Under the pieces are notes generated by a model. The model was not told the origin of the DNA, did no database searches, and was given only the letters and a program-made list of their open reading frames with translations. Shown here piece after piece: positions 18,865 to 55,787 of a DNA stretch of 64,000 nt; position 1 is the stretch's first letter, and every line of letters begins with the position of its first letter. The translations under genes were made by a program, and so were the position numbers. Origin of the DNA: Nostoc sp. 'Peltigera membranacea cyanobiont' 210A (GTDB lineage: Bacteria; Cyanobacteriota; Cyanobacteriia; Cyanobacteriales; Nostocaceae); assembly GCF_002246015.1 (NCBI RefSeq), contig NZ_NOLJ01000009.1, positions 170,224 to 234,223 on the forward strand, read 5' to 3'.

Positions 18865-20103
18865 TTACACTTCTACTTCCAGATGTGGAGGCGATCGCTC
18901 TTTGCTGATTTTGCTTAACCCGCTTAAAGACAGCATTTCATTGACAAAAACGAATATATTCTTAAAATTGCAACAAATTGGTAAAAATAGGCAGTTTTGC
19001 CAATTTGGGCACTTAATTTGATAAGTGGTATTGCATTCTAGATGTTCTCTAACCTGCATTCCCACAGCATATGCAAGCAATGGGGGCACCGAATTTCCGA
19101 TTTCTCTTTGGGCGTGGAGTATTGCCTCACTAAAATTAAACCAATCAGGATAACTGTGTAAGCGAGCAGCTTCTCTAACTGAGATAACTCGTGGCTGTTC
19201 TGGATGAAGGGGACGTAATGCGGTGCGGTTGCCACTCCCCGCTCTTAACGTCACACAGAATCCATCCCATTGCAGCTTTTTTGATTTGGATTTAGCTTCC
19301 CTCGCGCCTGGAGGAGTGTTGATGAATTGCTGAATTACTTCTGGTGTATGTGTTGTCGCTGCGAATCCCGTCTCAATGTTAGTTACTATACCAAGATTTG
19401 GGAATATTTTCTCAAGATACTTGGTATATTCTCCCTTCACCCAATCTGGATGCCATTCTTGAGTGTTTTGCTTGGGGAGTAGGGGGACTGGCAACAAGTC
19501 TGCGATCGCATCTCTAACTGTATGTTGAGGTTGATGCTTTGGCGGTATAATTTCTCCAAACTTAGATGCAACAAAAAACACCCTTTTTCTAGCTTGCGGA
19601 ACTCCGTAATCTGAAGCGTTCAGGTTCCACTTTGAGAGAAAATAATGTTCTTCTAGCACTGCTTGGAGGTTCGCAGTAATGCAGCCAAACTTTTGATTTT
19701 CAATCCCTGGCACATTCTCCATGATTGCCGCAAGAGGATTGAGTTCCAACACCAGCCGAACAAACTCCCCTAGTAACGAGTTTCTCTCATCTTCAACATT
19801 TTGCAGTCCGGCAACACTAAATCCTTGGCATGGTGGCCCACCAAAAACGGCATGAATCTCCCCGTCCCAATCTACATACTTCGCCTGAATACAGGCGCGT
19901 ATTTCTTCCCCTGTCACCTCCCGAATGTCTTTGCACAAAACTGTGGCGTGCGGGAAATTATGTTGGTATGTTGCTAGGGCGATGGGATTGTTATCAATGG
20001 CGATCGCAATTTCAAATCCTGCTGCTTTAAATCCCAAATCAAATCCACCCACCCCGGAGAATAGGCTAACAGCTATTTTTTTGTTTGCTGCTGTTGAGTT
20101 CAT
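18865..20103 (-). CDS. DNA (cytosine-5-)-methyltransferase
   Basis: A 412-residue C5-methyltransferase that transfers a methyl group from SAM to cytosine in DNA. Conserved motifs appear in order: I (LFSGVGGFDLG, 14-24), IV with catalytic Cys92 (GGPPCQGFS), VI (MENVPG, about 150), VIII (QARKRVFFV) and X (GNSVPP). The variable region between VIII and X should hold the target-recognition domain. A 45-residue cysteine-containing tail follows motif X. It is the last gene of a three-gene minus-strand operon (48 bp after the preceding gene). No restriction endonuclease is recognisable nearby, so it is solitary or belongs to an unusual system. Confidence 0.92.
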   Translation of the reverse strand: MNSTAANKKIAVSLFSGVGGFDLGFKAAGFEIAIAIDNNPIALATYQHNFPHATVLCKDIREVTGEEIRACIQAKYVDWDGEIHAVFGGPPCQGFSVAGLQNVEDERNSLLGEFVRLVLELNPLAAIMENVPGIENQKFGCITANLQAVLEEHYFLSKWNLNASDYGVPQARKRVFFVASKFGEIIPPKHQPQHTVRDAIADLLPVPLLPKQNTQEWHPDWVKGEYTKYLEKIFPNLGIVTNIETGFAATTHTPEVIQQFINTPPGAREAKSKSKKLQWDGFCVTLRAGSGNRTALRPLHPEQPRVISVREAARLHSYPDWFNFSEAILHAQREIGNSVPPLLAYAVGMQVREHLECNTTYQIKCPNWQNCLFLPICCNFKNIFVFVNEMLSLSGLSKISKERSPPHLEVEV

Positions 20104-20151: not shown

Positions 20152-21381
20152 TCAATTACAATCGGAGTTATGCCTGACTTTCAAATCTGCCAACCATCTG
20201 TCTAACCGACTATTACTAACTGTTTCTTCTATTAGTGGGTAATCTGTAGTGAAGACTTTATATACTCCTCCTGACTCCATCTCATAAAAATTGACAATCA
20301 ACCCTTCACGTTTGGCATTACTAAGCTTTTTGATTGCCTCTGGAAGCATCTGCCATACAGATTTCCTTTCCGAATCCGAGAGGAGGTTCCAAGCTTCTTC
20401 TTTAGCTTGTTGATATTGCCATAGTCCCCGGCGCACTGAGGAATAATCTGAAGCTTTCCGCAATATGTCTGCGAGGACTTCTGCATCAGTTGCTGGGACT
20501 TCATTTGTACCGAACATTCCAGCCAATGTACTTTCTACTGCCTCAATCTCATCTTCTTCAAAGTCAATGTTTGACTCTTCAGGTTCTTCCAGGTATTCTT
20601 CGCAATCATATTCTTCTGTATCCCTTTGCCACAAGGTTTCAAGTTCTCGCTGCATCACCTCAAGGTTTGTTGGGTTGACGACACTTTCATCGTTGACAGG
20701 AATCAATTCTTCTATGGTGTCAGTGAGTTGTTCACAAAAGATTAGTTCTCCAAAAGAGCCGATTTCATTCTTGGCTATCTCAGCTTGATGCTTTTCATAT
20801 AAATCAGCGATCGCCTTTCTGACAATTCGCTGCGGTGACAATCCCAATTCCTCTATTAACTTCTCGGTAAACACCCCTGTTTGGTGGTCATCCTCCATAA
20901 TTTTGCCGAAGGTGTAATATCTATTTCCATCTGGTGTTGCTCGCCAGTTGCCATCTTTTTTTTCTTGATTCATGGCTTTGAGAAACAATCTTCTTTTCTC
21001 AATCAGTTCTAACACTAATCCACAAGTCAATCCACCAATAGGAATATCTTTCAATTCATCAATTAAGATTTTGTAGTTCACAGAACATAACCGAAGTAGT
21101 AGCGATATTGGTAAAACTGCTAAGTGTTCCGGGCAACTGATAAATGCTTGAAAATTCTCGGCAATTCGGAGCGATCGCCTTTCCTCAGCACTGCCCTTAT
21201 CCCAGCCGTACTCTTCTAACAGTGCGCGATACTCTTTTTTGGTGTAAGTCTGCTTGTACTCGTAGAGTAGGAAAGCCGTATGGAGGTACTCTAGGGTACT
21301 TTGCTCTATGTGGGTGGTAGGATTGGAGTCTACCTGATGCTGCTCGATGTATAAATTATTTGCAAAAGTTGTTGTAGTCAT
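20152..21381 (-). CDS. Hypothetical acidic protein in methyltransferase operon
   Basis: A 409-residue soluble protein of unknown family. The N-terminal half is helical with a KKEYRALLEEYGW segment. Residues about 250-285 are extremely acidic (EEYDCEEYLEEPEESNIDFE), and the C-terminal 120 residues look like a compact alpha/beta domain. It lies between the HTH-repeat protein gene (73 bp upstream) and the methyltransferase (48 bp downstream) on one strand, so it is probably co-expressed with both. An acidic stretch may mimic DNA or bind a basic partner, but this is speculative. Confidence 0.6.
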   Translation of the reverse strand: MTTTTFANNLYIEQHQVDSNPTTHIEQSTLEYLHTAFLLYEYKQTYTKKEYRALLEEYGWDKGSAEERRSLRIAENFQAFISCPEHLAVLPISLLLRLCSVNYKILIDELKDIPIGGLTCGLVLELIEKRRLFLKAMNQEKKDGNWRATPDGNRYYTFGKIMEDDHQTGVFTEKLIEELGLSPQRIVRKAIADLYEKHQAEIAKNEIGSFGELIFCEQLTDTIEELIPVNDESVVNPTNLEVMQRELETLWQRDTEEYDCEEYLEEPEESNIDFEEDEIEAVESTLAGMFGTNEVPATDAEVLADILRKASDYSSVRRGLWQYQQAKEEAWNLLSDSERKSVWQMLPEAIKKLSNAKREGLIVNFYEMESGGVYKVFTTDYPLIEETVSNSRLDRWLADLKVRHNSDCN

Positions 21382-21454: not shown

Positions 21455-22090
21455 TCACGCTGCTTTCTGCAAGTTTTTTGATGATGATTTGGAGATAGCA
21501 GCCAACGCATAGCCCAAGGTGTGCTTGTGAATTTTGGGCATTTTGTGAAACGACATATCCTGACCCCAATCTTGGACTGACTTGGTGCCAATATGTAATA
21601 CTTGCGTGAGAGTTTTGACACAAGTTGCGCGAAAATTGGCGTGAGAGACAGTTTGTAGTACTTGTTGTTCAGTTAACTCATGAAGGAGTATTTTTTCTAG
21701 AAACGTTTGAGCATTTACTTCCGGTGCGTTGTATTCTCCTCTTAAGATGCTCTTTAGCTGCTTTGGCACGATTTCGGCGGTATGAATGTAAGCAAGTGAA
21801 ACTTTGGAGTAGTTGGGTATCCCATCAAAATTGAGATCACTTCCCCACTTGCGAACTGTTGGTCTTTGTACACCTAAGACTGCACATAGTATAGTGATAC
21901 ATTTTTTGCGGTATTGTGAGTCGGTTTCTTCTTCGAGCAGTTCTCTGGGACTAAGTTCGGCGATATCAAAACAGTGGCGTAGAAATTGTCTGGGTTCTAA
22001 GCCTTCTTTGGGTAAGTTTTTGAAGATTTCGCAGTATTTCATATTGGACTCGTGCAGAAATTTTGATTGAAACAGGTGTTTTTCTGCCAT
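21455..22090 (-). CDS. Protein with duplicated HTH-like module
   Basis: About 211 residues. Two copies of a roughly 70-residue unit can be aligned by eye: KKCITILCAVLGVQRPTVRK then WGSDLNF and, about 93 residues later, ATCVKTLTQVLHIGTKSVQD then WGQDMSF. In each, L-G/I-x-x-x-x-V-x-x-W fits the turn and recognition helix of a helix-turn-helix. The start is uncertain: ATG at 22090 is given, with an in-frame TTG at 22126 and ATG at 22042. It is the first gene of the leftward operon, beside a 48-bp palindrome, so a DNA-binding regulatory role is plausible. I do not recognise the family. Confidence 0.55.
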   Translation of the reverse strand: MAEKHLFQSKFLHESNMKYCEIFKNLPKEGLEPRQFLRHCFDIAELSPRELLEEETDSQYRKKCITILCAVLGVQRPTVRKWGSDLNFDGIPNYSKVSLAYIHTAEIVPKQLKSILRGEYNAPEVNAQTFLEKILLHELTEQQVLQTVSHANFRATCVKTLTQVLHIGTKSVQDWGQDMSFHKMPKIHKHTLGYALAAISKSSSKNLQKAA

Positions 22091-22161
22091 CTCAACTTTT
22101 TTGTGCTTTTGATTGAAGAATACCAAATCAACTAATTGTGTATGTGTTTTATTTACATTTT

Positions 22162-22209
22162 GTAACTATTTAGCAGTGTAAAAATATTTTTACACTGCTA
22201 AATAGTTAC
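22162..22209. promoter_or_regulatory. Perfect 48-bp palindrome between divergent operons
   Basis: Two 24-bp arms, the left starting GTAACTATTTAGCAGTGTAA, are exact reverse complements with no spacer. The palindrome sits 66 bp before the RHH-protein start and just upstream of the leftward operon. It lies between divergent starts rather than behind genes, so an operator or cruciform-type recognition site is more likely than a terminator. Confidence 0.75.
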
Positions 22210-22275
22210 GTTTATTAACGATTTAGCATACAAAGGCTTCAAATATGCTTTGTGGTTCCGATAGACTGAAGTAAC

Positions 22276-23286
22276 ATGAGTAAACAACAGCCCGAACAAA
22301 ACCCGAAGCTACCTCCGAAGCGTGGTCGTCCTGTAGATGCAGAGAAAGACCGCGTGACAGTCCATATTAGTGTTGATATGCGAGGTCAAATTGAGAAGCT
22401 AATACCTGATATGGGTAAAAGCTTGTCAATGGTAGTTAGGAACTTGGTGAATTTAGGTTTAGAGCTTGTTGGTTTATCTCAAAAGGGACTTACTGCTCCT
22501 CGGTCAGGTAATTTAGAGGAGTGGCTTGCAAGTTATACGTCTTTGGGAACTGAGCTGCTTATTGCTTGTGAAACTCTAAATTTGTCAGCTCCAAAATCAG
22601 GACAAATAGCTATTTGGCTTTTAGACAAAATGGCTTTTGGGTCAAATGACCCTCAAATTATTAATGATGAAGAAGATACTGGTACAAAGCTTTTAGAAAG
22701 AATTCGTTTAGGAAAGAAACTGCAAACTTTTAGCTTTGAACAAGGGATAGAATTACCTCAAAATGAGGAATTTGCTACTTGGTTGGGGCAGTTATATGTT
22801 AATGCTGCTATTGGACAAGAACTTTCAGCTGCTTGTCAGACGCTGGATTTGCAGTTACCAGAGACAGGAAAACTACAGGAGTGGTTGCAGGATTTGGTGG
22901 TGCGTTCGCCCTTGGCGGCTCCTCAAGGAGCATCGCACAGCGTCTCCGCAGTAGAATCACAATTATCAAACGAGTTATTAGAAGAATGCGATCGACTGGG
23001 GATAGAGCCGCCAAAACCTGGTGAGGTTGTAGCGTGGCTACAAAATACCCGCCCTGCGGTATTTGAGCAGTCAATGCACGAACATAGGTTACCTTTTACG
23101 GATGATGGTTTGCCTTTAGGGGGGTCGCAACCTTTTTTGGAGCATTTACTTACACTAAATGCACCGCCAACTGAAGATGAGGAGTATGACATTGCTCATA
23201 GGTTTGGTGTAGACCCAGCCCATCTTAAGGATTTGATATCCCGCATGAGGTTTAACAAGAACGGACAGACAAATAATTGTCATTAA
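22276..23286 (+). CDS. Ribbon-helix-helix protein with five degenerate repeats
   Basis: A 336-residue protein. Residues 14-66 look like a ribbon-helix-helix DNA-binding domain (basic KRGRPVDAEKDR, strand VTVHISVD, helices to LVNLGLEL). Five repeats of about 28 residues follow at roughly 60-87, 90-117, 145-173, 179-207 and 229-257, with the pattern LGxEL---C--L-L--P--G----WL. Residues 209-226 between repeats four and five are encoded by a dispersed repeat (22903-22955). It opens a rightward operon and faces the palindrome, so it is a candidate regulator of the divergent module. Confidence 0.6.
   Translation: MSKQQPEQNPKLPPKRGRPVDAEKDRVTVHISVDMRGQIEKLIPDMGKSLSMVVRNLVNLGLELVGLSQKGLTAPRSGNLEEWLASYTSLGTELLIACETLNLSAPKSGQIAIWLLDKMAFGSNDPQIINDEEDTGTKLLERIRLGKKLQTFSFEQGIELPQNEEFATWLGQLYVNAAIGQELSAACQTLDLQLPETGKLQEWLQDLVVRSPLAAPQGASHSVSAVESQLSNELLEECDRLGIEPPKPGEVVAWLQNTRPAVFEQSMHEHRLPFTDDGLPLGGSQPFLEHLLTLNAPPTEDEEYDIAHRFGVDPAHLKDLISRMRFNKNGQTNNCH
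22903..22955. repeat. Dispersed repeat inserted in RHH-protein gene
   Basis: A GC-rich block including GCGTTCGCCCTTGGCGGCTC and CATCGCACAGCGTCTCCG adds about 18 in-frame residues between two protein repeats. The type matches other cyanobacterial dispersed repeats in the window. Confidence 0.6.
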
Positions 23287-23305: not shown

Positions 23306-24100
23306 ATGGATGCCATTGAAGATTCCTCAACGTTGTGGACTTTACTATGCAAGCCTGGATGGGAAATTAAACCCAATCCAGTAAAGCATCTACTCAAAAT
23401 TAAAGCTCCTGACTACCAGGAAGCATTAATGCTTTATACCAACTATCGGAAATTTCTAGCAATGTGGGCGGCATCCCTCGATTGTACCTGTGCTTTGATT
23501 GGAATTCAGGGGATGCGTGGGTCTGCATTTAAAATTCTTGCAGCAACGCCAGCATCGCAGCAGAAGTTATACGAAGACTTGATTTTTGCGAGCTTACGAA
23601 AGTCGGTTAGTTGTGATTCAGAAAGACTAGTTGATCGGGAATTTGAGAATGATATCAGCAAGTATTCAGGGTTTTACATTGCTGAAACTTGTTTGCATCC
23701 TGAGCTTAGACCAATTGTTGATGAAATATTCTCAAACCCAGACAAGAAACTTGCCTTAACGCGAATGTCTGACAATTTGCAATTGATCGTGTCCGCATCA
23801 GCAGCACGGGCGATGAGTTCTGACTCACAAGATGTGGTGCGTCGTCGAACGACTGATTTTTGGCACGCTAGAGACTACGAATGTTTTTTGCGGATGTTCA
23901 AGCAAGATGGGGGAGCGGGGTTTGAAATTACCTACCAAGCAACAACCAATCTCCCAAAAATTAATCCTTTGGCACCGTGGGCGCGGTTTACTACAAGCTA
24001 TCGGTTTTTTGAAATTGATGTTGGCGATCGCACAGAAGTGTACCGTTTGGGCGAAGGTAAAGATATCACCCTAATCAGTCGTCCCAAGGTTGTTTCATAA
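23306..24100 (+). CDS. PAS-like hypothetical protein
   Basis: A protein of about 264 residues. The C-terminal half (about 150-255) resembles a PAS fold: a short strand before VSASAARAMSS, then VVRRRTTDFWHARDYECFL, which mirrors the PAS 'E-x-V-G-R-x-x-x-D-F' loop and the following strands. The N-terminal half is helical and unassigned. ATG at 23306 is preferred over an upstream TTG because GAGGG lies about nine bases before it. It is the second gene of the rightward operon, 19 bp after the RHH gene. The ligand and role are unknown. Confidence 0.5.
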   Translation: MDAIEDSSTLWTLLCKPGWEIKPNPVKHLLKIKAPDYQEALMLYTNYRKFLAMWAASLDCTCALIGIQGMRGSAFKILAATPASQQKLYEDLIFASLRKSVSCDSERLVDREFENDISKYSGFYIAETCLHPELRPIVDEIFSNPDKKLALTRMSDNLQLIVSASAARAMSSDSQDVVRRRTTDFWHARDYECFLRMFKQDGGAGFEITYQATTNLPKINPLAPWARFTTSYRFFEIDVGDRTEVYRLGEGKDITLISRPKVVS

Positions 24101-24114
24101 TATAGCGAGGTTTT

Positions 24115-24966
24115 ATGGCAGTAAGATTCCTAGAAAACAAGGGCAGTGGCAATATCTTAGAAATTAGTCGAGCTAGGCTTTTAGAACTTACCCCCAATGT
24201 TTATCCCCTCACCTGGGAAGCGATTCTTTCAGGTAATGGTGATAGTGCAGCTATCTTGGGTGCAGGTTTTGCCGAACGTGAAGTTTTTTTTGGTTTTGAG
24301 GGAGTTGACTTGACGCGCTACCAACTTCCGACAATCGACTGTTACGACATTGCTACTGAGCCGCCAGAAAAGTTTTTAGCTTTACGCAGCCAATACCCAA
24401 ACCTACAGTTAAATTATTTTTGCGATCGCAATCTAGCAGAACTAGAACTGACAAAACTTTACGCTCCTAATAGCCTGCGGCTAGTTTCAGTTCATGGAGT
24501 ATTAGATTACTTACAACCACATACGGTTACAAAAACATTACTTGATATCGTGAAGGTGCAACCAGAGGTAATATCGATACGGTTATTTTTAATGGGCAAC
24601 CCGTGGTCGCGGAATTTTGCGAGTATAGAGCAACTGGCGATGGAATTAGATTCAATAGAAATTACTACAAGTGGCTTAGTCGAGTCGATTGATTTTGATA
24701 TATTTTGTCGTACAGGTGTTGTGCAATTAAATATTTTAGATCAAGATAAAATTGAACATAATTTGTTACCAAGTTACGGTGCATCTCATGTAATGCCTGA
24801 TAAATTAGTTGGTTATTTAAATAGTCAAGGATATCAGCTTGTTGCAACTGATGTGTACTCACTTTCAAGTCAAGATTTGCAAGGGGATGAATCGCAAAAT
24901 CACAATAGTAATAAAGATGTATTTTTAGATAATCCACATGGAATGTTGTTATTTTTTAAACGATAG
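24115..24966 (+). CDS. Methyltransferase-like hypothetical protein
   Basis: A 283-residue protein beginning 14 bp after the PAS-like gene, with GAGG just upstream. The middle reads like a degenerate Rossmann SAM-methyltransferase: AAILGAGFAEREVFFGFEG in place of motif I, an acidic strand end (GVDLTRY), SVHGVLDYLQPH near the motif IV region, and a C-terminal strand LLFFKR. No catalytic motif is certain. It may act on a small molecule, peptide or nucleic acid, or be a non-catalytic relative. Confidence 0.45.
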   Translation: MAVRFLENKGSGNILEISRARLLELTPNVYPLTWEAILSGNGDSAAILGAGFAEREVFFGFEGVDLTRYQLPTIDCYDIATEPPEKFLALRSQYPNLQLNYFCDRNLAELELTKLYAPNSLRLVSVHGVLDYLQPHTVTKTLLDIVKVQPEVISIRLFLMGNPWSRNFASIEQLAMELDSIEITTSGLVESIDFDIFCRTGVVQLNILDQDKIEHNLLPSYGASHVMPDKLVGYLNSQGYQLVATDVYSLSSQDLQGDESQNHNSNKDVFLDNPHGMLLFFKR

Positions 24967-25652: not shown

Positions 25653-26234
25653 ATGCTAGCTAATAAGGTTACTAAAGATACATTAGACAATATTTTGGCA
25701 CTTCAAATAATAGTCGCTTGGGCTGGAGAAGGAGTTTGTGACCCTAAGCGTCTCGACTGGTGGCGTACAGACTTAATTGATGAAAATGGTGGTGGTGACT
25801 TATTTGGGCGGCTCTTTCCCAAGACGCATCAGTGGGCATCCTTACAAGCGGTACGACAGGCAGCAATCCAGCAAGATCGGCGTAAGCGTTTAGATATGGC
25901 GAAGCCTGACGCTGTAAGAACGCTGTTTTTTTGGGGGTTTACCGTTGATGAGCAGTTGACAGAACGACTGGCTTTCCACAAGCAGAGCGGGGTCAAACCG
26001 GTAGATGTTTTACCTTTATCTCTGGATATCTATCAGCCTTTTTCTGCGGCTGACTTCGAGGAAGCCATCAGTATTCCGCAGCAAAAGGTGGATTTTAAAG
26101 TGGTTCCTAGTGGACGGGAAATTTTTGGTGAAATGCTCAAGGCATTAGACGAATGTGCTAGGAAGCTAGCGTTTGCACTTTTGCCAATTGTAGAGAGCTA
26201 CCCCATGCCGTTTTACCGTTTGGAGGAGCGCTAA
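25653..26234 (+). CDS. brxE: BrxE, BREX type 6 component
   Basis: A 193-residue soluble protein at the head of the defence operon. The start (LALQIIVAWAGEGVCDPKRL) and the block DWWRTDLIDENGGGDLFGRL match what I recall of BrxE, the subunit that distinguishes type 6 BREX. Its biochemical role is not established. Five bases separate it from brxA. No strong ribosome-binding site is visible before the ATG. Confidence 0.82.
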   Translation: MLANKVTKDTLDNILALQIIVAWAGEGVCDPKRLDWWRTDLIDENGGGDLFGRLFPKTHQWASLQAVRQAAIQQDRRKRLDMAKPDAVRTLFFWGFTVDEQLTERLAFHKQSGVKPVDVLPLSLDIYQPFSAADFEEAISIPQQKVDFKVVPSGREIFGEMLKALDECARKLAFALLPIVESYPMPFYRLEER

Positions 26235-26239
26235 ATTCG

Positions 26240-27094
26240 ATGGCTACTAAAGTAATTCAGCGGCAACTCCCCCATCCAGTAGCAGCCCAATCTATGTTGT
26301 CTCATGGCAAAGAAGTCAGTCAATTCCATACCAGATTGCTACGTACATCTTTAGGGCTAGAAGAAAGCCGCGCCTACTGGGAACACTTCAGGATAGATAT
26401 ACCTAGAGAACAACGGGCAGTTGTTGCTTTTGAAGAACGTTGGTTTGGTAGTAAAAGCATGGCGCGTGTTCGCAGCCTGCTATTAGAATTCAGCCATCGC
26501 TTTGAAGCCTATCCAATGTCGTTAGAAGTTCTTAAACATTGGCGACCTAACGATCCCACAACTCGCCAAAATATCTGCCACTGGCATATGCAATTGAGCG
26601 ATCCCATTTATCGCAATTTTACTGGTGTTTTTTTAGAACAGCGCCGTCTACAACCCAATTCTGGCATTGATCGAGACATAGTGGCACGTTGGGTAACTCA
26701 GCAGCTGGAAAGTGAGTGGTCTGCTGCAACAACCTTTCGCATGGCGACTGGCTTGATAGCCGCCTCTGCTGCTGCGGGACTTTGCTCGGAAAACTCAGGG
26801 ATGCGTAGCCTCAAATATCCCAAGGTGACTGATGAAGCTCTAGCCTACTGGTTGTATTTTTTACGTGATTTATACTTTGAAGGTTCACTTCTCAGTAATC
26901 CTTATTTCAACTCTGTTGGCCTATTTGACAGCTTTTTAGAACAGAGGTTGAGCCGTCTACCAGGGTTATCATTTACCCGCATGGGTGATCTTTATGATTT
27001 TGGCTGGCATTATGTTGACCTGAAATCTTGGGCGATGCAAATCCTCTCTGCGAGAGACTACGCCAATGAAGCGAAGTGGGAGGAACAAGCATGA
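26240..27094 (+). CDS. brxA: BrxA (DUF1819) BREX protein
   Basis: A 284-residue protein of the BrxA family, a small helical protein reported to bind DNA in other BREX systems. The AYWEHFRIDIPREQRAVVAF and ERWFGSKSMARV segments and the position directly before BrxB support the call. Its stop overlaps the brxB start by four bases (ATGA), indicating translational coupling. Confidence 0.85.
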   Translation: MATKVIQRQLPHPVAAQSMLSHGKEVSQFHTRLLRTSLGLEESRAYWEHFRIDIPREQRAVVAFEERWFGSKSMARVRSLLLEFSHRFEAYPMSLEVLKHWRPNDPTTRQNICHWHMQLSDPIYRNFTGVFLEQRRLQPNSGIDRDIVARWVTQQLESEWSAATTFRMATGLIAASAAAGLCSENSGMRSLKYPKVTDEALAYWLYFLRDLYFEGSLLSNPYFNSVGLFDSFLEQRLSRLPGLSFTRMGDLYDFGWHYVDLKSWAMQILSARDYANEAKWEEQA

Positions 27095-27723
27095 TTGGAT
27101 CTTTGCTTGACCTTCAAATGTCTGCGGTGCAGGCACTACGCAGCGACTTGCTCGATGAAGGTGGCCCCAAAATTAGCACAATGCGGAACTACCGATTTGC
27201 CATTCTACTTTACGATCCCCGTGAAGAATTTAAACTTCGCGCTCAAATCCGGGTACTAACAGATGACCTGAAGGGACAAGGTTGGAATGTCCTAGCAATC
27301 TCTCTTCAGCGCTTGTTTTTAGACAGACTCAAGCGAGAAGAACCAAGGGTTTTAGAAAGTATTATTCGCACAGAGCATCGTCTCTATGCCAAAGACCCAA
27401 ACCGGGCGCTGAATCATTTAAAAGACAAAATTGCACTTTACATTGAAGGGGCTGAGGGGATTGCCAAAGATGTTATTGCCTTAATCGATGATTTTTCAGA
27501 TAAACACCCAGGTGAAATCAACCGCACCTTAATTTTTTTGGGACGTGCTGGAGGGCTGTATCCATTTTTTCGCTCATCAGCACTTCTTAAGCATATCGAT
27601 GGTAAGACAAGCAACTTGCCTGTTGTTCTCCTTTATCCAGGGGAGCGAAGGGATTTGAACGCTCTGTCTTTTATGGACGAACTGCCCTCTGACCGGGACT
27701 ATCGACCTCGAATTTACTCATGA
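27091..27723 (+). CDS. brxB: BrxB (DUF1788) BREX protein
   Basis: A protein of about 210 residues. ATG at 27091, preceded by GGAGG, is preferred over an upstream in-frame GTG. NYRFAILLYDPREEFKLR and the C-terminal NLPVVLLYPGERRD fit BrxB, a core component of most BREX types whose exact role is unclear. It lies between brxA (overlapping) and brxC (37 bp). Confidence 0.85.
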   Translation: MIGSLLDLQMSAVQALRSDLLDEGGPKISTMRNYRFAILLYDPREEFKLRAQIRVLTDDLKGQGWNVLAISLQRLFLDRLKREEPRVLESIIRTEHRLYAKDPNRALNHLKDKIALYIEGAEGIAKDVIALIDDFSDKHPGEINRTLIFLGRAGGLYPFFRSSALLKHIDGKTSNLPVVLLYPGERRDLNALSFMDELPSDRDYRPRIYS

Positions 27724-27760
27724 CTGACTTTATTACTGCAACTCTTAGAGAGGTGATGCC

Positions 27761-30700
27761 ATGCTAATTAAGGAAATTTTTGCTGCTGATGTCACCCGTA
27801 ATATTGCCCCAGTCATTTATTTCCATGAGCAAAAGCCTGCCAAGGTCTTAGAAGAAGTCTCTGAATACATTATCACAGGCGGTTATCCGGAAACTGACCC
27901 CCGCCACAAGCGTGTGCAGTCGGGAATTCACGAGCAGTTTGTGAAGCTGCTCAATTCTATGGCAGAAGAATTACAAAAACCGGGTGGGGCTGAACTTCCA
28001 GCATCCTGGATCTCAGGTTTTTATGGATCTGGGAAATCGAGTTTTGCCAAGCTTTTAGGGTTGGCTCTCAATGACATGGTTTTACCCGATAATCGGACGG
28101 TGGCAAGTGCCTTGCTAGCGCGGGATGATTCTCCCAAAACCCAAGAGTTTCAAGATGCCTGGAATCGAGTTCGTAGTCAGATTGATCCCCTAGCCGTGGT
28201 CTTTGATATTGGTGCAGTAGCACGGGATGACGAGCATATCCATTCAGCAGTCAAGCGGGAAGTACAAGCACATCTGGGCTACTGCACTATTAGTAATTAT
28301 GTTGCCGAGCTAGAACTGAAGCTAGAACTGGATGGGAAATGGCAGGAGTTTTTAATCTGTGTAGAGCAGACTTTAGGACAACCTTGGTCAAAAGCGAAGA
28401 GCGATCAGTTGGCTGAGGAAGCTTTCTCTGAAGTTATGCACGCTATGTATCCTAGCCGTTATACTGACCCAATGAGTTGGTTTGATAGTCGTGCTGGTGC
28501 CCAAACGGGAATGGGAACCTCGCCCTCGGAAACGACTAAAGCCATCATTAATATGCTCAATCACCGCGCCTCTGGTAAAACCTTATTCGTTGTAGTAGAT
28601 GAGGTGAGCCAGTATATACACCAGAATACGGAGCGGATGCTCAAACTTCAGTCGTTTGTTTCTGATTTGGGGCAAAAACTGAAAGGACAAGTATGGTTAT
28701 TGGCAACAGGGCAGCAAAAGCTGGAAGACAGTGAGGATGAAAGCAACATTGGTAAGCTCAAGGATCGTTTTCCACCCAAGCTGAGGGTTCACCTTGCACC
28801 TACCAACATTCGAGATGTTGTGCATAAGCGGCTTTTGAAAAAAGCTTCCTCGAAAGAAGCCCAATTGCGATCGCTTTTTGCCCAGCACCGTAGCGACCTC
28901 AAACTCTACGGCTACAAGTGCGATTCCATCACTGAAGAGGATTTTATTGAAGTTTATCCCATGCTGCCTGGTTACGTAGATTTACTGATGCAAATCACAT
29001 CAAACCTGCGTACCCGTTCCAGCCGTGCGAAGGGAGATGACCATGCCATTCGAGGGCTACTGCAACTGTTGGGGGAATTGTTCCGTGAACAGAAACTAGG
29101 AGAACAGGAACTAGGCGCGTTAGTTACTATCGATAGCATTTATGAAGTGCAACAGTCGGCTTTAGACGCTGATGTGCAAACTACGCTAGCACGTTTGTTC
29201 AGCCATGAAGAAGTTATTAAAGACGAGATGGCGATAAAAGTGGCAAAAGCAGTGGCACTTTTGGAGTTGATTCAAGAACAAGAACCGACAACTGTTACTT
29301 TGGTTAGCCAATGTCTTTATTCTCAGTTGGGAATGGGTAACAATGAGCCATCAAGTACAGCAGCCTTAGAGAAGTTGCGGGGATTAGGGCTACTTTCTTA
29401 TTCTGACAAACTTGGCTATAAAATTCAAAGTTCTGCTGGGCAAGAATGGCAGCGAGAGCGAGATAATCACAGCGTGATTACTGATGCTATTAGTTTGATT
29501 GTGGCAGACAAGTTGAAGTCACTGTTAGGCACTGTAGAACGCCCCCGCTACAAAAATAAGTCGTTTCCTTGGTTAGCTATTTATAGTGATGGTCGTCAAC
29601 GACAGGATGAGCGTATTCAAGGTTCAAACGACCCAGCTGTGCTGACTATTGATTTTCGCTATCTCACTAATAAAGAAGAGCGAAACCCTACAACTTGGAT
29701 ACAAACTAGCGATCGCTCAAATTTCCGCGATCGCCTAATTTGGGTAGTAGGTACTTGCGATAATGTTGCAGCCCAAGTACGAGAACTTGCCAAATCCCAG
29801 CACATCATCAGTAAGTATGAAAGTCGCAAGCAATCTCTTACCAAAGATAAGAGAAACTTACTTGGAGAAGAAGAAAGTCGCCGTGACGTGTTAGAGAGAG
29901 AAGTGCAAAAAGCGATCGCTCAATCCTTTATGGATGGTGAAATCTTCTTCCGGGGACGACAAATCGACAAGCAGCAACACGGGACAACTTTTACTACTGT
30001 GCTTGGACGCATAGGGGAAAACATTTTGCCGGATCTTTACAGCCATTATGTAGATGTGGCAGTTACTCCGGGTGAATTAGCGCAACTTTTAGAGCCGAAC
30101 TTATCCGGCCCATCCCACAAATTTATGAAAGATGGGCTGGGCATACTCGAACTAGATGCAGGTAAATATATGCCAACCTGTAGCGGTGAAGTTCCTTCCC
30201 GAATTGGTCAGTACATTCAAGACCAAAACGGAGTTTCTGGCAATGTGTTGCTAACTCACTTTGGTGGGCCGCCCTACGGCTATCCCGCAGATGTGGTTAA
30301 GGCTTGCTTGGTGGGTTTACTTCGAGCTACTAAGGTGCGAATTCGACCCGAAACTGGCCCAGAAATTACCTCGGTGCGTGACCCTGGCGCTAAGGATATG
30401 TTCACTAAAGACCGGGACATCAAACGTGCCGATTTGCTACCTCCCAATGAAACCAGTATTAGCCCTCGTGACAAAATTGCCATTTGTAAGTTCTTCAAAG
30501 ACTCATTAGATGTTGAACTGGATCGGGAAAATGATGCGATCGCCGATGCGGTTTTCCAACAGTTCCCCGGTCAGGTCAAACGATTACAAGAATTAGAACG
30601 GCGGTACAATCGACTACCAAACCGACCAAATTTACCCTCAGCTTTAGTCAAGTTGCGCGAGTCCCTGGAAAAGTGTACCCGTTCTCGCCAAGTTGAAGAC

Positions 30701-31381
30701 ACTGTGATTGCAGTTAAGAAAAATCTCGATGCACTGCGAGATGGGATTCAAGAACTTGGTATTTCCTTGACAGATTTGACTGATAGTGCTGTGGATGCCG
30801 TAACTAAGGCAATTAATATTCGGGATAACCAAGTAGTTCAACTCAAGCAGATTGAGCGTTGGACAGAAATTACTGAAGCGATCGCAGCTTTAGAAGAACA
30901 GCTAAATAGCGATCGCTCTTGGCGGGACATTAGCAGCTTGGAACCTCACCTACAAACAATTGAACAGCACTACAAAGCCGTGCGGTTGAACTTGATTGAG
31001 AGTCAAGAAAAGCAAGCCAAAGCAATTCAAGGACGACTCAAACAGCGCCAAAACTTTATCAAATTAAACGAAAAGCAAGGAGAATATGTGTTCCGTTCCG
31101 TTCAAGAAGCGACCTATGACACAACTCAGGATGCACTCTATCCCAGTTTGTTAGAACTCAAAGATTCAGCACTAATTAAGCTCCAGAAGGCTGAGACTAC
31201 TGCTAATAACAGGCTTGATGATGTGTTGTCCGAAGTCACTGAAGATCAAGTGGTGCAGCTACCGCTAAATCTTAGTGGTCGTGAAGTCAGCACAGAAGCA
31301 GAAATTGATGCACTAGTTAACCAGTTAAAAGAGCGGCTATTAGCTCAACTCAAACCCAATACTCGCATTCGCTTATCTTAA
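27761..31381 (+). CDS. brxC: BrxC, large P-loop ATPase of BREX
   Basis: A 1206-residue AAA-like ATPase. Walker A is GFYGSGKSS at residues 86-94, and Walker B is [12 protein letters not shown] near 275. The C-terminal third is rich in coiled coil (for example [10 protein letters not shown] to LNSDRSW), as in other BrxC/PglY proteins. GAGGTG precedes the ATG. BrxC is essential for BREX restriction and is thought to form the ATP-dependent core complex with PglX and PglZ. The stop codon is also the first base of a long hairpin. Confidence 0.92.
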
Positions 31382-31494
31382 ATGGGGCATGGGGAATAAG
31401 AAGCATAAATACTCAACTCCCAACTCCCAACTCCCAACTCCCAACTCCCAACTCCCAATCCCCAATTCCCTATTCCCCATTCCCCATTCCCAAT
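31381..31494 (+). repeat. Heptamer array in a long hairpin between brxC and pglX
   Basis: Six perfect CAACTCC heptamers (31414-31455) are followed by degenerate heptamers such as CCATTCC up to the pglX start. AATGGGGCATGGGGAATA (31381-31398) and TATTCCCCATTCCCCATT (31471-31488) pair in 17 of 18 positions, enclosing the array in a loop of about 72 bases. No Shine-Dalgarno sequence is visible before pglX, so this element must shape its translation. Confidence 0.75.
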
Positions 31495-34400
31495 GTCCTA
31501 TCTCACCCCTGAAGCTAAATCCAAATTATCCAGTACAATTCGTGCTTTAAGAGAACGTTTGCTTACTGATTTGCAAAACGCCGTAGAAAGCACCTATCGA
31601 TTGTCGATTACTGCTGTAAGTAAAGCCGGATTAGCAGAAGAACAACGGGTAAAGCGGCAACGTTTAGAACAATGGCTAGATGAGCAATCCCGTAGTCAGG
31701 GTAAAAGTAAGAAACAAGAAAATGAGATCGGCGATCGCTATTTGAAAACGGCTGTCAAACTCGCGGCTGCAACGTTGCTCAATCGGCTGATAGTAATTAA
31801 GCAGATGGAAGCACACGGATTAAGTAAACCTGCTGTATTAACCGGAGGTTGGCAGAGTCGGGGTTATCGGGAGTTTCGAGATTTTGCACCGGACTTGTGC
31901 AAAGATGAAACTGAGGGATACGGAACACTACTGCAATTACTCTACGATGAACTGGCTCAGGAATTGCCTGGTTTGTTTGGCAATGTCGGAGTGACAGCAC
32001 TGTTCCCAATTCCAGCCAGTACCTTGAGAGCAGCAATTGAGGCTTTGGATGCAGCTGAATTAAAGGATGTTTGGCTGGACGATACAACTTTGGGGTGGGT
32101 TTATCAATACTGGAACGACCCAGAACGAGAAGCCCTAGATGCCAAATTAAATGGGGGCGGGAAGGTAGAACCCCATGAAATTGCCAGTAAAACCCAAATG
32201 TTTACAGAACGTTACATGGTGGAGTGGTTACTCCATAACAGTTTGGGGCAGATGTGGCTGGCTATGTGCAAAAAGCACGGTTGGACGGCTGAGGTTGAGG
32301 CTGATGGAACTTTAGCTCGTTTGGAAGCAAGGCGTAAAGAGTGGCGAGAAAAGCGCGAACAAGGCGAGGTGGCTTTAGACGCATTAATGCCAATTGAACC
32401 GGGAATTGAAGAAAATTGGAAATATTGGGTTCCCCAACCATTAACCGCAGATGCAGTCACTCATGCACCAGAGAGTGTGCGATCGCTAAAAATTCTTGAT
32501 CCTGCCACCGGCTCGGCTCATTTCCTGGTAATTGCCTTTGGGTTGTTATTTACACTTTACCAGGAAGAGGCCAGGCATCGGGGGGAAAATTGGAGCGATC
32601 GCCAAATTGTTGAGTCGATTTTAGAGAACAATTTATATGGTGTTGATATTGACCCCAGAGCAATACAAATTGGGGCGGCGGCGTTGATACTGAAGGCGCG
32701 GCTGCTTTCTCCCCAAGCAAGTCCTAAACATCTGAATTTGGTTGCATCTAATCTCCAGTTGGCTTCTTTACCAGCAGATGATCCGGCGTTGGTGGAGTTG
32801 CGGCGAGAGGTGACGGAAGCCACGGGGATTCCTGAAAAGTTGACAAATCAGATTGTATATGCTCTACAAGGAGCAGATTATTTAGGAACGCTGTTGAAGG
32901 TAGATACAGCAGTGGATGCAGCAATTAGTGAGTATGAAAGTCAGTTTCAGCAGGCAGTTCAAGGGAATATTTTTGCAGGCTTTGGTGAGCAAAAACCAGA
33001 TTTCAACTTTCAGCAGACAAAAGCTTCTTTACTCGATAAACTTGAGCAATTTCTCTCTCGGTGTACTAGTGGCGATGATTTAGGTTTGCGGTTGCGGGGT
33101 GAGCAGTTAGCAGCAGGTATCAGATTTATCCGCATAGCCCGTGAGAATAGTTATGATTTGGTGATTGGTAATCCGCCGTATCAGGGGACGAGTAAGATGG
33201 CGGATGCTGGGTATATTACGAAGAATTACTCAAAAGGAAAGGCAGATTTATATACAGCATTTCTGGAACGGGGTTTGCAATTGGCAAAAGTTGGGGGTTT
33301 GTCTGCATTGTTAACGATGCGGAATTGGATGTTTATTCAGCAGTTTACGCAGATTCGGGAATATTTACTCAGCAATTTTGATTTGAGATTACTAGGAGAT
33401 GTAGATCGGGGTGCATTTGAAGAAGTGGTTGATGAAGTAGTTGCAACAGTTATGAGTGTGTTTCAAAAAGCAACATCAAATAAAGCATTTAGTATAGCAA
33501 TCCAGCCAACTCCATTAGATGATAATTCACGAGATAGCGGACGAACAAAGCGGAAACGGGCAGCAATTTTATTGCAAATAGGGCGGTTTGAATTTTGGAG
33601 CCATCGCTTTGATGTTATCAAAGAAAAGCCTCTCGTTTATTGGTGGAATAAAGCTTTTCTCAAACGCTATGCCGAGACACCGAAATTAGGGGATATAAGT
33701 CCCTCATGGCAAGGAGTCGCAACAACAAATAACACTCGATTTTTGCGAAAAGTTTGGGAAGTAAATATTAATAAAATATTAATTGCTAAAACAACTGATT
33801 TGATGAAGGAGCAGCAAAATGAAACATGGTCTCCATATATTAAAGGAGCATCTGGACAAATTTGGATAGAGTCTCTCTCAAATCTTGTTGAATGGCAAAT
33901 GAAAGGATGGACGCTTAATGCTCATCTAGAATTTTACAGAGAGAAACACCCAGCATTACATCTAAAAGATAATACAAAATATTTCAACCCTGCTGTTGCT
34001 TTTTCTTGCATTGGGGCAGAATTTTCTGCTCGAATTCACCGCTACCGGAGTGTTATAGGTGATAAAGGTTCTTCTGTTTTTACCCAAGATTTGGCTAATG
34101 TAACTTGCTTATTAAATAGCAAAATCGGCCGTAATGTTATGGCTTCTCTTAACCCTTCAATTAGCTTTCAAGTCGGCGATGTTAACCGCCTTCCTCTTTT
34201 CCCCATTGAATCTGCTGACGAAATATTCACCCAACTCGACGCAGCCTTCAGCGAACATGAAGCTGCCCGCGAAACATCTGTAGAATTCAAAAAACCAGGT
34301 GCATCCGTCTGGAACTATGCTCAAGAATGGGCGCAAACAGCAGTAGACCGTGAACCTGGTATACCGCTACCAAACTACGAACCAGTCTACGAAGATCCAC

Positions 34401-35473
34401 CTGCAACCAATTTTGCATCCTATACTATCGGCGTAGCATTAGGGCGATTTGGCGCAGATGGCGAAGGTATCCTTAATCAAGCGCCCGCAACTGCACTCCC
34501 CCACAGTATCCTTTATCTCTCCGCCTACTCTGAAAAAGACAGCTTAGAACACCCAGCCTGTAAACCCATCCAAGAAACTTGGCACGAGTACGGCTCAATT
34601 ATTGCCAAAGGAACCCAACTTCGCAAATGGTTGCGGTTATCCTTCTTTAAAGAAGTTCACTTGGGGATGTATGAAAGTCGCCCAATTTACTTTCCTCTTT
34701 CATCCCAACGTAAAAACTTCGTTGCCTTTGTCAGCATTCATCGCTGGGCTGACAACACTTTGCAAACTTTATTAGCAGATTACCTCATCCCCGAACTCAG
34801 TCAACTAGAAGGCGAACTCAACGACCTAACCACAGCCAGACATCAAGGCGATAAAAAAACACAAACAAAAGCCGAAGAACGCTACAGCGAAGTCCAAAAA
34901 CTCCACGAAGAATTCAAAGCATTTATCGACCTCGTGAGACAGTGCGCGGAACAAGGGCCAATCCCAGCCAACGCCAGAGATATCCCCCGCGAAGTCGATG
35001 CCCGTTTCAAAATGGATTTGGACGACGGTGTGATGGTGAATAGTGCAGCCCTCTGGCCCTTACTCGAACCCCAGTGGAACCAACCCAAGAAATGGTGGTC
35101 AGAACTCTGCAACGCCGAAGGTAAAAAAGATTATGACTGGTCACATTTAGCCGCCCGTTATTTTCCCAAACGAGTTGATGGTAAATGCAAACAAGATCCT
35201 TCCCTCGCCGTAGCCCACAGCTGCTTTTGGAAATATCACCCAGCTAAAGCTTACGAGTGGGAACTGCGGTTGCAAGATGAAATTTCTGAAGATTTTACTA
35301 TTGAGGAAACAGACTCTAATACTTTGCGCCTAGCCTTTGCTAGAGAAAATCCCCAGCTAGTGCGGGAAATTATCGAGAAAGAAGAGAAGCGACGGGAACG
35401 CAAACGCAAAAAAGAAGAAACCCAAGAGGAAGATTACGGCCCTCTGTTTGAGCAAGAAGAGGAGGCCGCATGA
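31493..35473 (+). CDS. pglX: PglX, BREX N6-adenine DNA methyltransferase
   Basis: A 1326-residue type I-like adenine methyltransferase that marks host DNA in BREX. Motif I is [10 protein letters not shown] near residue 336 (SAH rather than the more usual SGH) and motif IV is IGNPPY near 559. A target-recognition region follows (about 700-900), then a long C-terminal extension rich in charged residues. The ATG lies immediately after the heptamer array. The stop overlaps the pglZ start by four bases. In other BREX systems pglX is the phase-variable or allele-shuffled gene. Confidence 0.93.
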
Positions 35474-38325
35474 GTCACTTAAATCCCATTACCGCAGTTT
35501 TAGAAGCAGAACTGAAGCGAGAACTGCGTCAACGCGGTATCGTTATTTGGCTAGATAAAGACGGGTACTACAACAGTTATGTTGATGAGTTAATCGCCCG
35601 CTATAACCGTGGTGACTTTTTTGCCCCAGTCGTTGGCTTTCGCGGCAGTTACTTAGAGATGGTACTTGCCCTGGAAACTTATGGCAATGGACTTGACCCC
35701 GAACCGTTGTTAATTCACATGCCCGGTCATACGGAAGAAACTATCCGCAAAACTCCTATTCTGGAACTTTACCGCGCCGGCTACCGTTTCCGCAAAGCCT
35801 TTGACACATTAATTCGGGAAGCAGTCACAGGGCGCATTAACCCTGCTAGTATCGAAAACTACCTTAACAACGGCATCACAGACTTACCATCTGCCGAGAT
35901 GTGGCTGCAAAATAACCTTTCCCAACCCCAGGACGGACTAGCAGCTTATTTAACAAGTCTCAGTTTGGAGTGGATTGTAGACGGTATCCTGGGCGAAGAC
36001 AAAGTACTGCAATCGAGAATCAGCGACCAAACTGCTCTCAACACCTTAACAGAACATCTCTACCGTCACACAGGGATGAACACAGCTTTTGTGTGCTTCT
36101 TTCACGGCGACACACCCCTATCTTTCCTCGGTCTGGGCGAAACATTTGCTGCTTGGCTGATGTGCGTTGAGTATGTCCATGACCTCACTCGCCCTCCTCA
36201 TCTTGAAGCACTGCAACCCCTGACCCAACTTTCTCTACCCTTGCGAAAGACCTGCAAGCAACTCGTCGAATATCTGCGAAAACGCCATCCAGATATTTAT
36301 GCAGCCAAAGCAGCAATTGTAGAATCCCATCTAGAACAAGAACTTAATCAAATTAGCCCCGAAGACCTGGGACAATTTGAAACCTTCCAGTGGGAAGAAA
36401 CCGCCATTTTACAGGGTGCTGTACAAGCACTGCTGACTGGGGAATTTCAGAAAGCCTTACAATGGTCACAATCTCACACCGAGTCTGCTTCATTTTGGCT
36501 AGAACGCGATCGCACTCGCAGATTAGAATGGTCATTAATCAAAGATGCAGCCACTTTGGGTTACATGATTCAAGGTTCAGGGCAGCTTAAGGGCAAACAA
36601 ACCCTCAGAGAAGCTTTAGAATACTATACACAAACTGGCTCTGAAGTAGACAAAGCACATCGCCGCTTTGAGCAACAGAGGTTAAAACTCCTAGAACCCA
36701 CCTTACCCCACTTCGCTCAACTCCTAGAAGCTGCCGATAAACTTCGTTTTCAGTACCGCAGTTGGGCTGATACGCTGGCACAAGATTTTGCCGTCATCTG
36801 CACTACAGAAAGCTTTTTACCCGATGATGGACTTCAGCAACGCACTCTCTACGAGCAAGTAGTACACCCCCTCACCCAAGGTAATAAAAAAGTTGCTTAC
36901 TTTCTGATTGATGCCTTCCGCTACGAAATGGCAACAGAACTTATCCAAGAATTTGAAGGGGCTGGTACTACCGTAACGTTGAAAGGGAGATATGCCGAAT
37001 TACCCAGCATCACTGCTATCGGGATGAACATCCTAGCCCCCGTTAACCAAAATGGTCGGGTAGTATTAGCGGGTAGTGATGGTTTCAAAGGTTTTAAAAC
37101 AGGTGAGTATACTGTGCGAAAGCCTGATGAACGAGTCCGGGCAATGAGTGAGAAGAGTGTTGATAATATCAGTGCAGGCCGTAGAAAAGTTCGGGGTCTG
37201 ACTCTGGCAGAAGTCTGCAATTGGTCAACCACCAGCCTCAAACAAAGCTGCGCTAATACCAATCTTGTTGTTGTTCACAGTAGAGAAATTGACGATGCAG
37301 GCGAAGCTAATGTAGGTTTAGCAACCTTTGAAACTTGGCTTCAACAAATCAAGTCAGCCTGGAACCACCTCAAAAGTATTGGTATAAATGAGTTTGTATT
37401 CACTGCTGACCACGGATTTCTCCTCCAAGACCAAACTACCCAAGAAAAACCCTATCGTGACTCCAATCGCCGTTATATTCTTGCCAAAGAACCTCGCTCT
37501 GAAGAAGGAATGGTAACAGTTTCTTTAAATGCTCTCAAATACGAAGGACAAGAAGGTTACTTACTATTCCGTAAAGATACTGCTGTTTTTGCCACTGGCA
37601 ATCCTGGTGCTACCTTTGTACATGGTGGGAATAGTCTTCAAGAGCGAGTTATTCCTGTACTAACAGTATCCCATCGTCATCAGTCACATTTGGCAATGGT
37701 GAAATATCTCATCGAAGCCAAACCAGAGCCAAGCATTTTAGACTGTAGCCGGATTCGGGTGAGGGTTAAGCCCGCGCCTGTTGCCCAAGGCGTTCTCAGT
37801 TTTGTGGGAGCCAGGGAAATTAATGTCGCTTTGCGCGTACCAGAACGACCTGATATCCAAGTTACGATTAAGGATGCTCCTGGTGCAGAAGTCAAAAATC
37901 AGCAACTCCAAATTGCCGTCGAAGGAGATTGGATTGAGGTGCTTTTTGACCTCAAGGGACAGCGAGATGAGCGTGTCCGTCTGGAAATTTATCACCCAGA
38001 TAATGTTGAAGATGTAGAGTCAATAGTTCCTCAAACTTATTTTAATGTCTCTGGCTCATTGATCCAGGGTGAGGTTTCTACGGCTACCGAATTACCCAAA
38101 AATACTGACTGGCAAGATAGTTTCGAGGATGAAACCGTTCGGCGTGTGTTCTTCCACCTCCAGCAACACGGCTCAATCACAGAATCGGAACTAAACCAAA
38201 TCCTTGGTTCAGCCAGACTGGTGCGGCGTTTCTCCTTAGATTTTGAGGAACACCTGAAAAAGGTTCCTTTCTCAGTCAGGATTGAAACAACCAGTAACGG
38301 TAAACGCTATGTCAAGCAAAATTAA
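35470..38325 (+). CDS. pglZ: PglZ, alkaline-phosphatase-superfamily BREX protein
   Basis: A 951-residue protein with the alkaline-phosphatase-like core: FLIDAFRYEMATEL near residue 479 (first metal site) and FTADHGFLL near 646 (DHG metal site). It has the N-terminal alpha-helical region usual in PglZ and an Ig-like or beta-rich C-terminus. PglZ is the defining gene of BREX; metal-dependent nuclease or phosphodiesterase activity has been reported for family members. Overlap with pglX indicates coupled translation. Confidence 0.93.
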   Translation: MSHLNPITAVLEAELKRELRQRGIVIWLDKDGYYNSYVDELIARYNRGDFFAPVVGFRGSYLEMVLALETYGNGLDPEPLLIHMPGHTEETIRKTPILELYRAGYRFRKAFDTLIREAVTGRINPASIENYLNNGITDLPSAEMWLQNNLSQPQDGLAAYLTSLSLEWIVDGILGEDKVLQSRISDQTALNTLTEHLYRHTGMNTAFVCFFHGDTPLSFLGLGETFAAWLMCVEYVHDLTRPPHLEALQPLTQLSLPLRKTCKQLVEYLRKRHPDIYAAKAAIVESHLEQELNQISPEDLGQFETFQWEETAILQGAVQALLTGEFQKALQWSQSHTESASFWLERDRTRRLEWSLIKDAATLGYMIQGSGQLKGKQTLREALEYYTQTGSEVDKAHRRFEQQRLKLLEPTLPHFAQLLEAADKLRFQYRSWADTLAQDFAVICTTESFLPDDGLQQRTLYEQVVHPLTQGNKKVAYFLIDAFRYEMATELIQEFEGAGTTVTLKGRYAELPSITAIGMNILAPVNQNGRVVLAGSDGFKGFKTGEYTVRKPDERVRAMSEKSVDNISAGRRKVRGLTLAEVCNWSTTSLKQSCANTNLVVVHSREIDDAGEANVGLATFETWLQQIKSAWNHLKSIGINEFVFTADHGFLLQDQTTQEKPYRDSNRRYILAKEPRSEEGMVTVSLNALKYEGQEGYLLFRKDTAVFATGNPGATFVHGGNSLQERVIPVLTVSHRHQSHLAMVKYLIEAKPEPSILDCSRIRVRVKPAPVAQGVLSFVGAREINVALRVPERPDIQVTIKDAPGAEVKNQQLQIAVEGDWIEVLFDLKGQRDERVRLEIYHPDNVEDVESIVPQTYFNVSGSLIQGEVSTATELPKNTDWQDSFEDETVRRVFFHLQQHGSITESELNQILGSARLVRRFSLDFEEHLKKVPFSVRIETTSNGKRYVKQN

Positions 38326-38367
38326 CAGATTAATGTATAAAAGTAAACGTATTAATTAAAATCAACT

Positions 38368-39687: not shown

Positions 39688-39689
39688 CC

Positions 39690-53141: not shown

Positions 53142-53180
53142 AAGTGACTTGAAGTTATGTGCAGTCTTACTGTACTGTTC

Positions 53181-54514: not shown

Positions 54515-54525
54515 AAATAAGGCTT

Positions 54526-55619: not shown

Positions 55620-55628
55620 GAACATCGG

Positions 55629-55699: not shown

Positions 55700-55787
55700 T
55701 CAAACAGAAGACTGTTCAGGAGATTGACAGCTTTGATGATATCGTTGAAGTGACTTGGCTTTTGCTAGACAATGATTGCGTCTAGAA

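Follow-up and report, generated by a model that had tools for sequence, protein, structure and literature searches.

A perfect 48-bp palindrome between two divergent operons of a probable Nostoc megaplasmid is, with a probability of about 80%, the operator of the 336-aa RHH-like protein encoded beside it. Judging from sequence comparison of its relatives, this operator appears to be exchanged between related plasmids together with the regulator's DNA-binding half, as one unit. The window, by which we mean the whole 64,000-nt stretch analysed here, lies on a 336,339-bp contig (C30) of the 8.3-Mb genome of Nostoc sp. 'Peltigera membranacea cyanobiont' 210A. Positions are those of the window unless a relative is named, and the features around the palindrome are collected in Table 1.

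Table 1. Features of the palindrome and its flanking operons, in window coordinates.
Feature	Position	Strand	Basis or remark
C5 cytosine DNA methyltransferase, third leftward gene	18865..20103	-	Family match; missing from this place in several relatives
409-aa protein, function unassigned, second leftward gene	20152..21381	-	No family above cut-off
195-aa HTH-like protein, highly conserved first leftward gene	21455..22042	-	All-helical model; no family above cut-off
Exchanged block, approximate edges	21990..22880	.	HTH gene start, intergenic operator and RHH DNA-binding half
Perfect 48-bp palindrome, proposed RHH operator	22162..22209	.	Sequence; paired changes conserved in relatives
Left half-site core CAGTG	22174..22178	.	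GTG invariant in 17/17 aligned type-A sequences
Right half-site core CACTG (mirror)	22193..22197	.	CAC invariant in 17/17
Putative RHH-gene promoter	22238..22267	+	TTCAAA 22238-22243, 18 nt, TAGACT 22262-22267; by eye, conserved block
336-aa protein with N-terminal RHH-like domain, proposed palindrome-binding regulator	22276..23286	+	Sub-threshold PF01402; allele exchanged with operator
264-aa protein, conserved after RHH gene	23306..24100	+	No family above cut-off; 270 aa from an upstream TTG
283-aa protein, conserved third rightward gene	24115..24966	+	No family match

The palindrome (letters GTAACTATTTAGCAGTGTAAAAAT / ATTTTTACACTGCTAAATAGTTAC) has no spacer, and its two 24-nt arms (22162-22185 and 22186-22209) are 100% complementary, as the initial annotation of this DNA had described; the genes on either side are indeed divergent. 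Its exceptional character is also clear. The runner-up among perfect inverted repeats (loop 0-4) on the 336-kb contig has a 15-nt arm, and the longest arm in three first-order Markov simulations of the contig's length was 12, against 24 for the palindrome. The 171-bp region around it occurs at one place in its own genome (the palindrome's self-match on the opposite strand aside) and the 24-bp core, allowing up to three mismatches, at one place among 8,325,913 bases, so it is no dispersed repeat; a common dispersed repeat is what the annotation had said would count against its proposal. That we are looking at a chance palindrome or the footprint of a mobile element is improbable in the extreme: palindromes can arise by rearrangement, and in one relative a deletion ends inside the left arm, but the simulated arm lengths, the single copy and a dyad at 17 of 17 comparable loci all argue otherwise.

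A program scan calls the palindrome terminator-like (four sites in the scanned stretch against 0.1 in shuffles, three of the four being the palindrome), and its single strand forms a stable DNA fold (-20.6 kcal/mol, z -10.3), both of which would suit a bidirectional terminator or an RNA hairpin or attenuator. We nevertheless regard such a role as highly unlikely. Intrinsic terminators have a G+C-rich stem and a T-tract and lie downstream of a gene; here the stem is A+T-rich, the tail (GTTTATTAAC) has no clean T-tract, and the palindrome precedes each of the divergent genes, whose transcripts therefore need not run through it. Rfam at the gathering threshold gave two group II intron matches in the window and none at the palindrome. 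Moreover, relatives with the second type of operator described below keep separate dyads at helical-turn spacing.

The operator reading draws first on conservation in relatives, the search that the annotation had proposed. Matches to the RHH protein were found in 28, and to the HTH protein in 57, of 192 genomes of the family. Among 388 genomes searched across the order, five gave matches, including a weak one from beyond the family (E 4.5e-4). From the family search we took 30 loci with the HTH gene, 17 with a neighbouring RHH gene of type A, as in the window, or of type B, and 13 with neither. An inverted repeat, defined by thresholds chosen after the data had been seen (arm of at least 13, at most two mismatches, loop of at most 12, centre 145-152 nt from HTH codon 30), is kept at the homologous place in 17 of 17 loci with the RHH neighbour versus 0 of 13 without it. 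The longest arm among these 13 is 11; one of them (L062) extends only 263 nt to that side, and another (L056, in genome G124) has a 27-residue remnant of the RHH C-terminus nearby. The dyad is thus conserved at homologous loci, and in this set only where its proposed cognate regulator is encoded, as expected of an operator.

Compensatory changes in both arms, which the annotation had suggested looking for, are also present. The covariation set comprises 17 type-A sequences, 14 close and three distant (L022, L110 and L111); of 16 type-A loci, L095, with its left arm deleted, and L099, with a repeat identical to that of L098, were dropped. Among the 17 sequences, 88.7% of cells are paired (G-U counted as a pair), and 11 of 24 pairs have changed on both sides, compared with a mean of 3.8 in shuffles and none as high in 500. 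The covariation score is 0.165 versus 0.080 in shuffles, and pairing falls to 34-48% when the partner is shifted by one to three columns. In strict Watson-Crick terms, a sequence's own arms match at 20.0 of 24 positions versus 18.6 when arms are reassigned across the 15 distinct rows, a difference matched in 5 of 100,000 permutations. Since kinship among the sequences inflates the significance given by shuffle controls, the pattern outweighs the p-values. The GTG/CAC core of the half-sites holds even in the three distant relatives, which retain a degenerate type-A site pairing at only 12-16 of 24; four of the 14 close loci (L092, L093, L094 and L101) pair at only 16-20 of 24.

A perfect palindrome of 48 bp is longer than a pair of RHH dimers should need; known RHH sites are shorter and often imperfect. 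Part of its perfection therefore needs another cause. It is quite possible, at rather less than even odds, that this is an operator whose arm perfection comes mainly from quasipalindrome template switching, which copies one arm onto the other. L097 carries three adjacent mirrored changes (positions 16-18 from the centre), and perfection extends beyond the core and varies between near-identical strains, with 24/24 in the window and 23/24 in L091, where one arm has changed. PMC8604942 reports for yeast that the arms of inverted repeats become homogenised, with multi-base changes. Against this, the core is invariant and the site is exchanged together with the DNA-binding domain, both of which point to selection on the site, and one-arm changes without a partner persist in most loci that differ from the window. 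Template switching would refine the operator reading, with which it is compatible, and may add perfection to a selected core.

The assignment of the operator to the RHH protein comes from a comparison of types A and B. The strand motif of the protein reads VTVHI(S/N)V in type A and VSFTLAP in type B, and type-B loci have 16-bp dyads resembling TTTAGTGATGCACTAA, unlike the type-A palindrome. Of 10 type-B loci, seven carry three such dyads, 33 and 21 bp apart from start to start, and L105, L065 and L015 each have one of their three dyads off pattern. L113, a distant relative of type B, also carries three, spaced at 21 and 33 bp. Over positions 22050-22770, all nine type-B loci compared are 48-50% identical to the window and type-A loci 94-100%. 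Windows at the edges of the exchanged block are 66-91% identical to type B. Beyond it, the HTH-core DNA of type B is 89-97% identical to the window (nine loci) and the right flank 87-97% in eight of nine loci, with the shortened stretch of L015 at 63%; type-A loci reach 90.5-100% and 87-98.5%, respectively (13 loci). In 120-bp windows of the right flank, listed for 12 of 22 relatives, identity is 64-82% in one lineage that holds both types, and single windows in L104, L105 and L014 stand at 75-79%.

A tree of the flanks (22 rows; L015 of type B is omitted because its shortened row gave a long branch) rejects type B as one clade (AU p=0.000125), and a tree of the block (23 rows) splits A from B with 100/100 support. 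Operator type and RHH type are thus co-inherited while the flanks are incongruent with B as one clade, which argues that the DNA-binding half and the operator moved as a unit. By sequence association, then, specificity appears to follow the regulator's DNA-binding domain. Most simply, recombination in the conserved flanks would replace the cassette on similar backbones with the type-B allele and its operator. This makes a clear natural case of a regulator's DNA-reading half and its operator being replaced together on similar plasmids, and comparing such plasmids in pairs could reveal the rules of RHH-DNA recognition and of plasmid 'typing'. As side observations, Dulcicalothrix desertica carries both an A-like (L110) and a B-like locus (L113), and Nostoc favosum two A loci (L095 and L097). 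L095 has lost its HTH gene to a deletion (~5085-5125 of that locus) with an endpoint within the left arm, and the junction retains GTGTAAAA-N4-TTTTACAC.

Because the repeat follows the RHH DNA-binding domain across relatives, we assign it to the RHH rather than the HTH protein. Binding by the HTH-repeat protein instead would fit its being encoded by the other flanking gene, its all-helical AlphaFold model (pLDDT 69) and the likeness by eye of its two halves. We consider this very improbable, as its core hardly differs between plasmids that have a type-A operator and those that have a type-B one (among 20 HTH proteins compared, the core of those from seven type-B loci is 85-93% identical to the window's) and as it is encoded at 13 of 30 loci without a comparable repeat. 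A protein so constant across operator types is unlikely to set specificity, and the HTH gene would be the regulated gene rather than the binder. A PDB fold search with the HTH model returned no match at E <=0.001 (best E 1.3). The gene very probably starts at 22042, which is codon 30 of a 223-aa ORF, because non-type-A homologues align only from about codon 30 and because plasmid pC052_E of Nostoc sp. C052 has an annotated gene of 588 nt corresponding to window positions 21455-22042.

The RHH-like domain spans residues 26-63 (22351-22464). Its PF01402 score lies below the curated cut-off of 20.5, with 15.5 bits for the whole protein and 19.5 bits for the isolated domain, and for this reason we call the protein RHH-like and do not file it as a member of PF01402; weak matches to the family recur in eight of 16 full-length relatives and four of 10 isolated domains. 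The initial annotation took both first genes to encode putative DNA-binding proteins; the RHH assignment is sub-threshold, and 'HTH repeats' is a reading by eye of a protein with no family library match above cut-off. The AlphaFold monomer model of the RHH protein is poor (mean pLDDT 44), with helices at 33-40 and 50-69 and no strand assigned in the domain. Modelling a single chain of an obligate dimer would be expected to fail, but the model lends no support. Searches of PDB sequences with the RHH, HTH, 264-, 283- and 409-aa proteins gave nothing convincing, CopG being one of three weak matches of the RHH protein (E 1.4). The protein resembles CopG and other RHH_1 repressors in the sub-threshold profile match over residues 26-63, but differs from them in having about 270 extra C-terminal residues. 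Viral contigs searched with the RHH and HTH queries held no confirmed relative.

We infer from these observations how the protein binds, in what stoichiometry, that it represses and which promoters it controls. Two RHH dimers, or a tetramer, would bind the mirrored half-sites CAGTG-N14-CACTG and control the divergent promoter region. Within the 233 bp that separate the two operons, the HTH promoter would have to lie between the palindrome and 22042, so RHH binding would probably repress the HTH operon. On the other side, the RHH gene begins 66 bp right of the palindrome and its putative promoter starts 28 bp right of it, so autoregulation would probably proceed through cooperative binding or looping. 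A scan for consensus promoters found none. Of the shared operator that the initial annotation had put forward, the operator part is thus upheld by the conserved inverted repeat and its paired changes, and control of both operons is the part that is predicted.

A regulon sharing the type-A operator was considered and dropped. The genome holds no second copy of the type-A core within three mismatches, and the contig no second 17-bp half-site within two; there is one at three mismatches, compared with two for the reversed control. CAGTG-N14-CACTG with one mismatch fits eight further places on the contig, about the chance level for ten fixed bases by our own arithmetic. As there is no second operator copy in the genome, direct control of the neighbouring BREX genes from the same operator sequence is unlikely.

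RHH proteins also act in plasmid partition and in relaxosomes, and MobC of RA3 is described in parts of PMC4175270 as an RHH transfer auxiliary protein; a parS-like centromere, or an oriT or replication site bound by an RHH accessory protein, was accordingly a further candidate. We think it highly unlikely. No recognised ATPase gene adjoins the palindrome, sister plasmids with another regulator are without the site, and we see neither a linked partition ATPase nor repeated sites near par genes. On pC052_E, read with about 75 kb of the plasmid left out, the cassette occupies 42-47 kb, away from the genes for ParA/ParB, ParM and the relaxase (125-134 kb) and from a further ParA gene (147-148 kb); on the Nostoc contig, the counterpart of the 125-134 kb block is situated about 135-143 kb away from the palindrome. 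Two other suggestions of the initial annotation, a processing or replication site of a mobile unit and a cruciform-binding site, find no support: the site is single-copy and lies far from the ParAB, ParM and relaxase genes seen (about 80 kb away on pC052_E and 135-143 kb on our contig).

The proposed operator invites comparison with three known systems. First, MobC, which we compare by arrangement and with no kinship of the proteins implied, is likewise a plasmid-borne RHH protein beside a palindrome upstream of its own gene (PMC4175270, in part). According to the same parts of that paper, an intact palindrome is needed for efficient binding, and perfecting the palindrome lowered binding. The MobC operator is short, imperfect and placed between -35 and -10 beside oriT, whereas the Nostoc dyad, perfect over 48 bp, precedes the proposed -35, separates two divergent operons and is remote from the relaxase gene. 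Second, the immB regions of phages PY54 and N15 likewise place operators between divergent regulator genes, and their proteins and operators form type-specific pairs (PMC4488713, in part); unlike these, our case concerns a plasmid, the exchanged unit takes in no more of the regulator than its DNA-binding half, and no choice between lysis and lysogeny is known. Third, BrxR of BREX systems is a regulator with a pseudo-palindromic site next to the BREX locus, but it is a wHTH-WYL-WCX protein with its site at the BREX promoter (PMC9122589, in part), whereas the protein here is RHH-like. The mechanism is of a known kind; what makes this case a variant is that a domain and its operator are exchanged jointly on a plasmid and that a range of regulators is found in the same slot. 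A literature search, which covered its sources in part, did not find joint domain-operator exchange described, and PMC8600333 does not mention C052, NIES-4073, defense, BREX or ribbon.

As in phage immunity regions, regulator and operator are exchanged jointly between similar elements. This could mean that large conjugative plasmids of Nostocales diversify through swaps of regulator-operator pairs ahead of the HTH operon and that each pair sets a plasmid 'immunity type', such that the regulator of a resident plasmid would silence the operon of an incoming plasmid of the same type (superinfection immunity) and not those of other types, a reading of the sequences that we find doubtful. Other loci carry still other regulators at this place, which gives it the look of a general slot for regulators ahead of the HTH operon. 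Some relatives have an 86-aa RHH-like protein preceded by CTCTAGAGAATCTCTAGAG, some a 64-aa RHH-like protein, and some a 143-aa Xre-like protein with ATTATATAGCAAGCTCGCTATATAAT; L045 has another RHH-like protein, with ATAGGTCATGTATA and its mirror, and the Trichormus type has no small divergent regulator at the homologous place. These RHH-like and Xre-like labels were given by eye, and the dyads are candidates with no chance comparison behind them.

The contig itself is very probably a circular megaplasmid related to pC052_E; we take it to be circular because one alignment series crosses its own two ends. Blocks of the pC052_E backbone, including ParAB, ParM, relaxase and dnaN/dnaX stretches, align at about 88-97%, and a further 721-nt piece at 66%. 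Both pC052_E and a Scytonema plasmid resemble the gene of the 409-aa protein only in the DNA of its first ~310-360 nt. Homologues of the locus occur on megaplasmids of Nostocales. Among plasmid records, five of five with the RHH gene are typed conjugative, as are 10 of the 14 with the HTH gene (two are mobilizable and two non-mobilizable), and our contig is, by sequence, similar to plasmids typed conjugative. The VirB4 family PF03135 had no match in its own genome and matched one of 14 control genomes. In other genomes the locus lies on a chromosome-sized contig (for example, G108 and G136).

The cargo beside the cassette varies, from BREX in the window to DISARM, Eco29kI, CBASS-like or caspase-like genes or a set of tgt and DGQHR-domain genes in relatives, where the names are those of the annotations except for 'CBASS-like', which is our own reading. 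The operator would thus be a conserved control point beside a cargo region with BREX, DISARM, restriction and other defence genes. In the window, the BREX set follows the cassette at 25653-41807 and includes a BREX-6-type BrxE, BrxB, BrxC and PglX, with BrxA sub-threshold, in a family scan that left out three ORFs from 35470 on. Tandem 14-nt units (CAACTCCCAACTCC) at 31400-31497 lie between the brxC and pglX ORFs and touch the pglX start.

Several smaller observations concern the surroundings of the cassette. ORFs at 43986-45618 resemble, by eye, ThiF/E1-type and multiubiquitin-like proteins, and pC052_E has genes annotated as ThiF/E1-type and multiubiquitin-like on the opposite side of the cassette (3587-5919 of L063). 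Two ORFs at 53159-55705 resemble group II intron reverse transcriptases, and each is followed by a match to the group II intron family RF00029 (54524-54602 and 55627-55705). In Tolypothrix plasmids, an annotated iscB lies between the HTH gene and the next leftward gene (9551-10828 of L065). Near the right end of the window, at 61956-63464, perfect 23-bp inverted repeats 1463 nt apart enclose two ORFs resembling transposase fragments and mark a probable insertion sequence.
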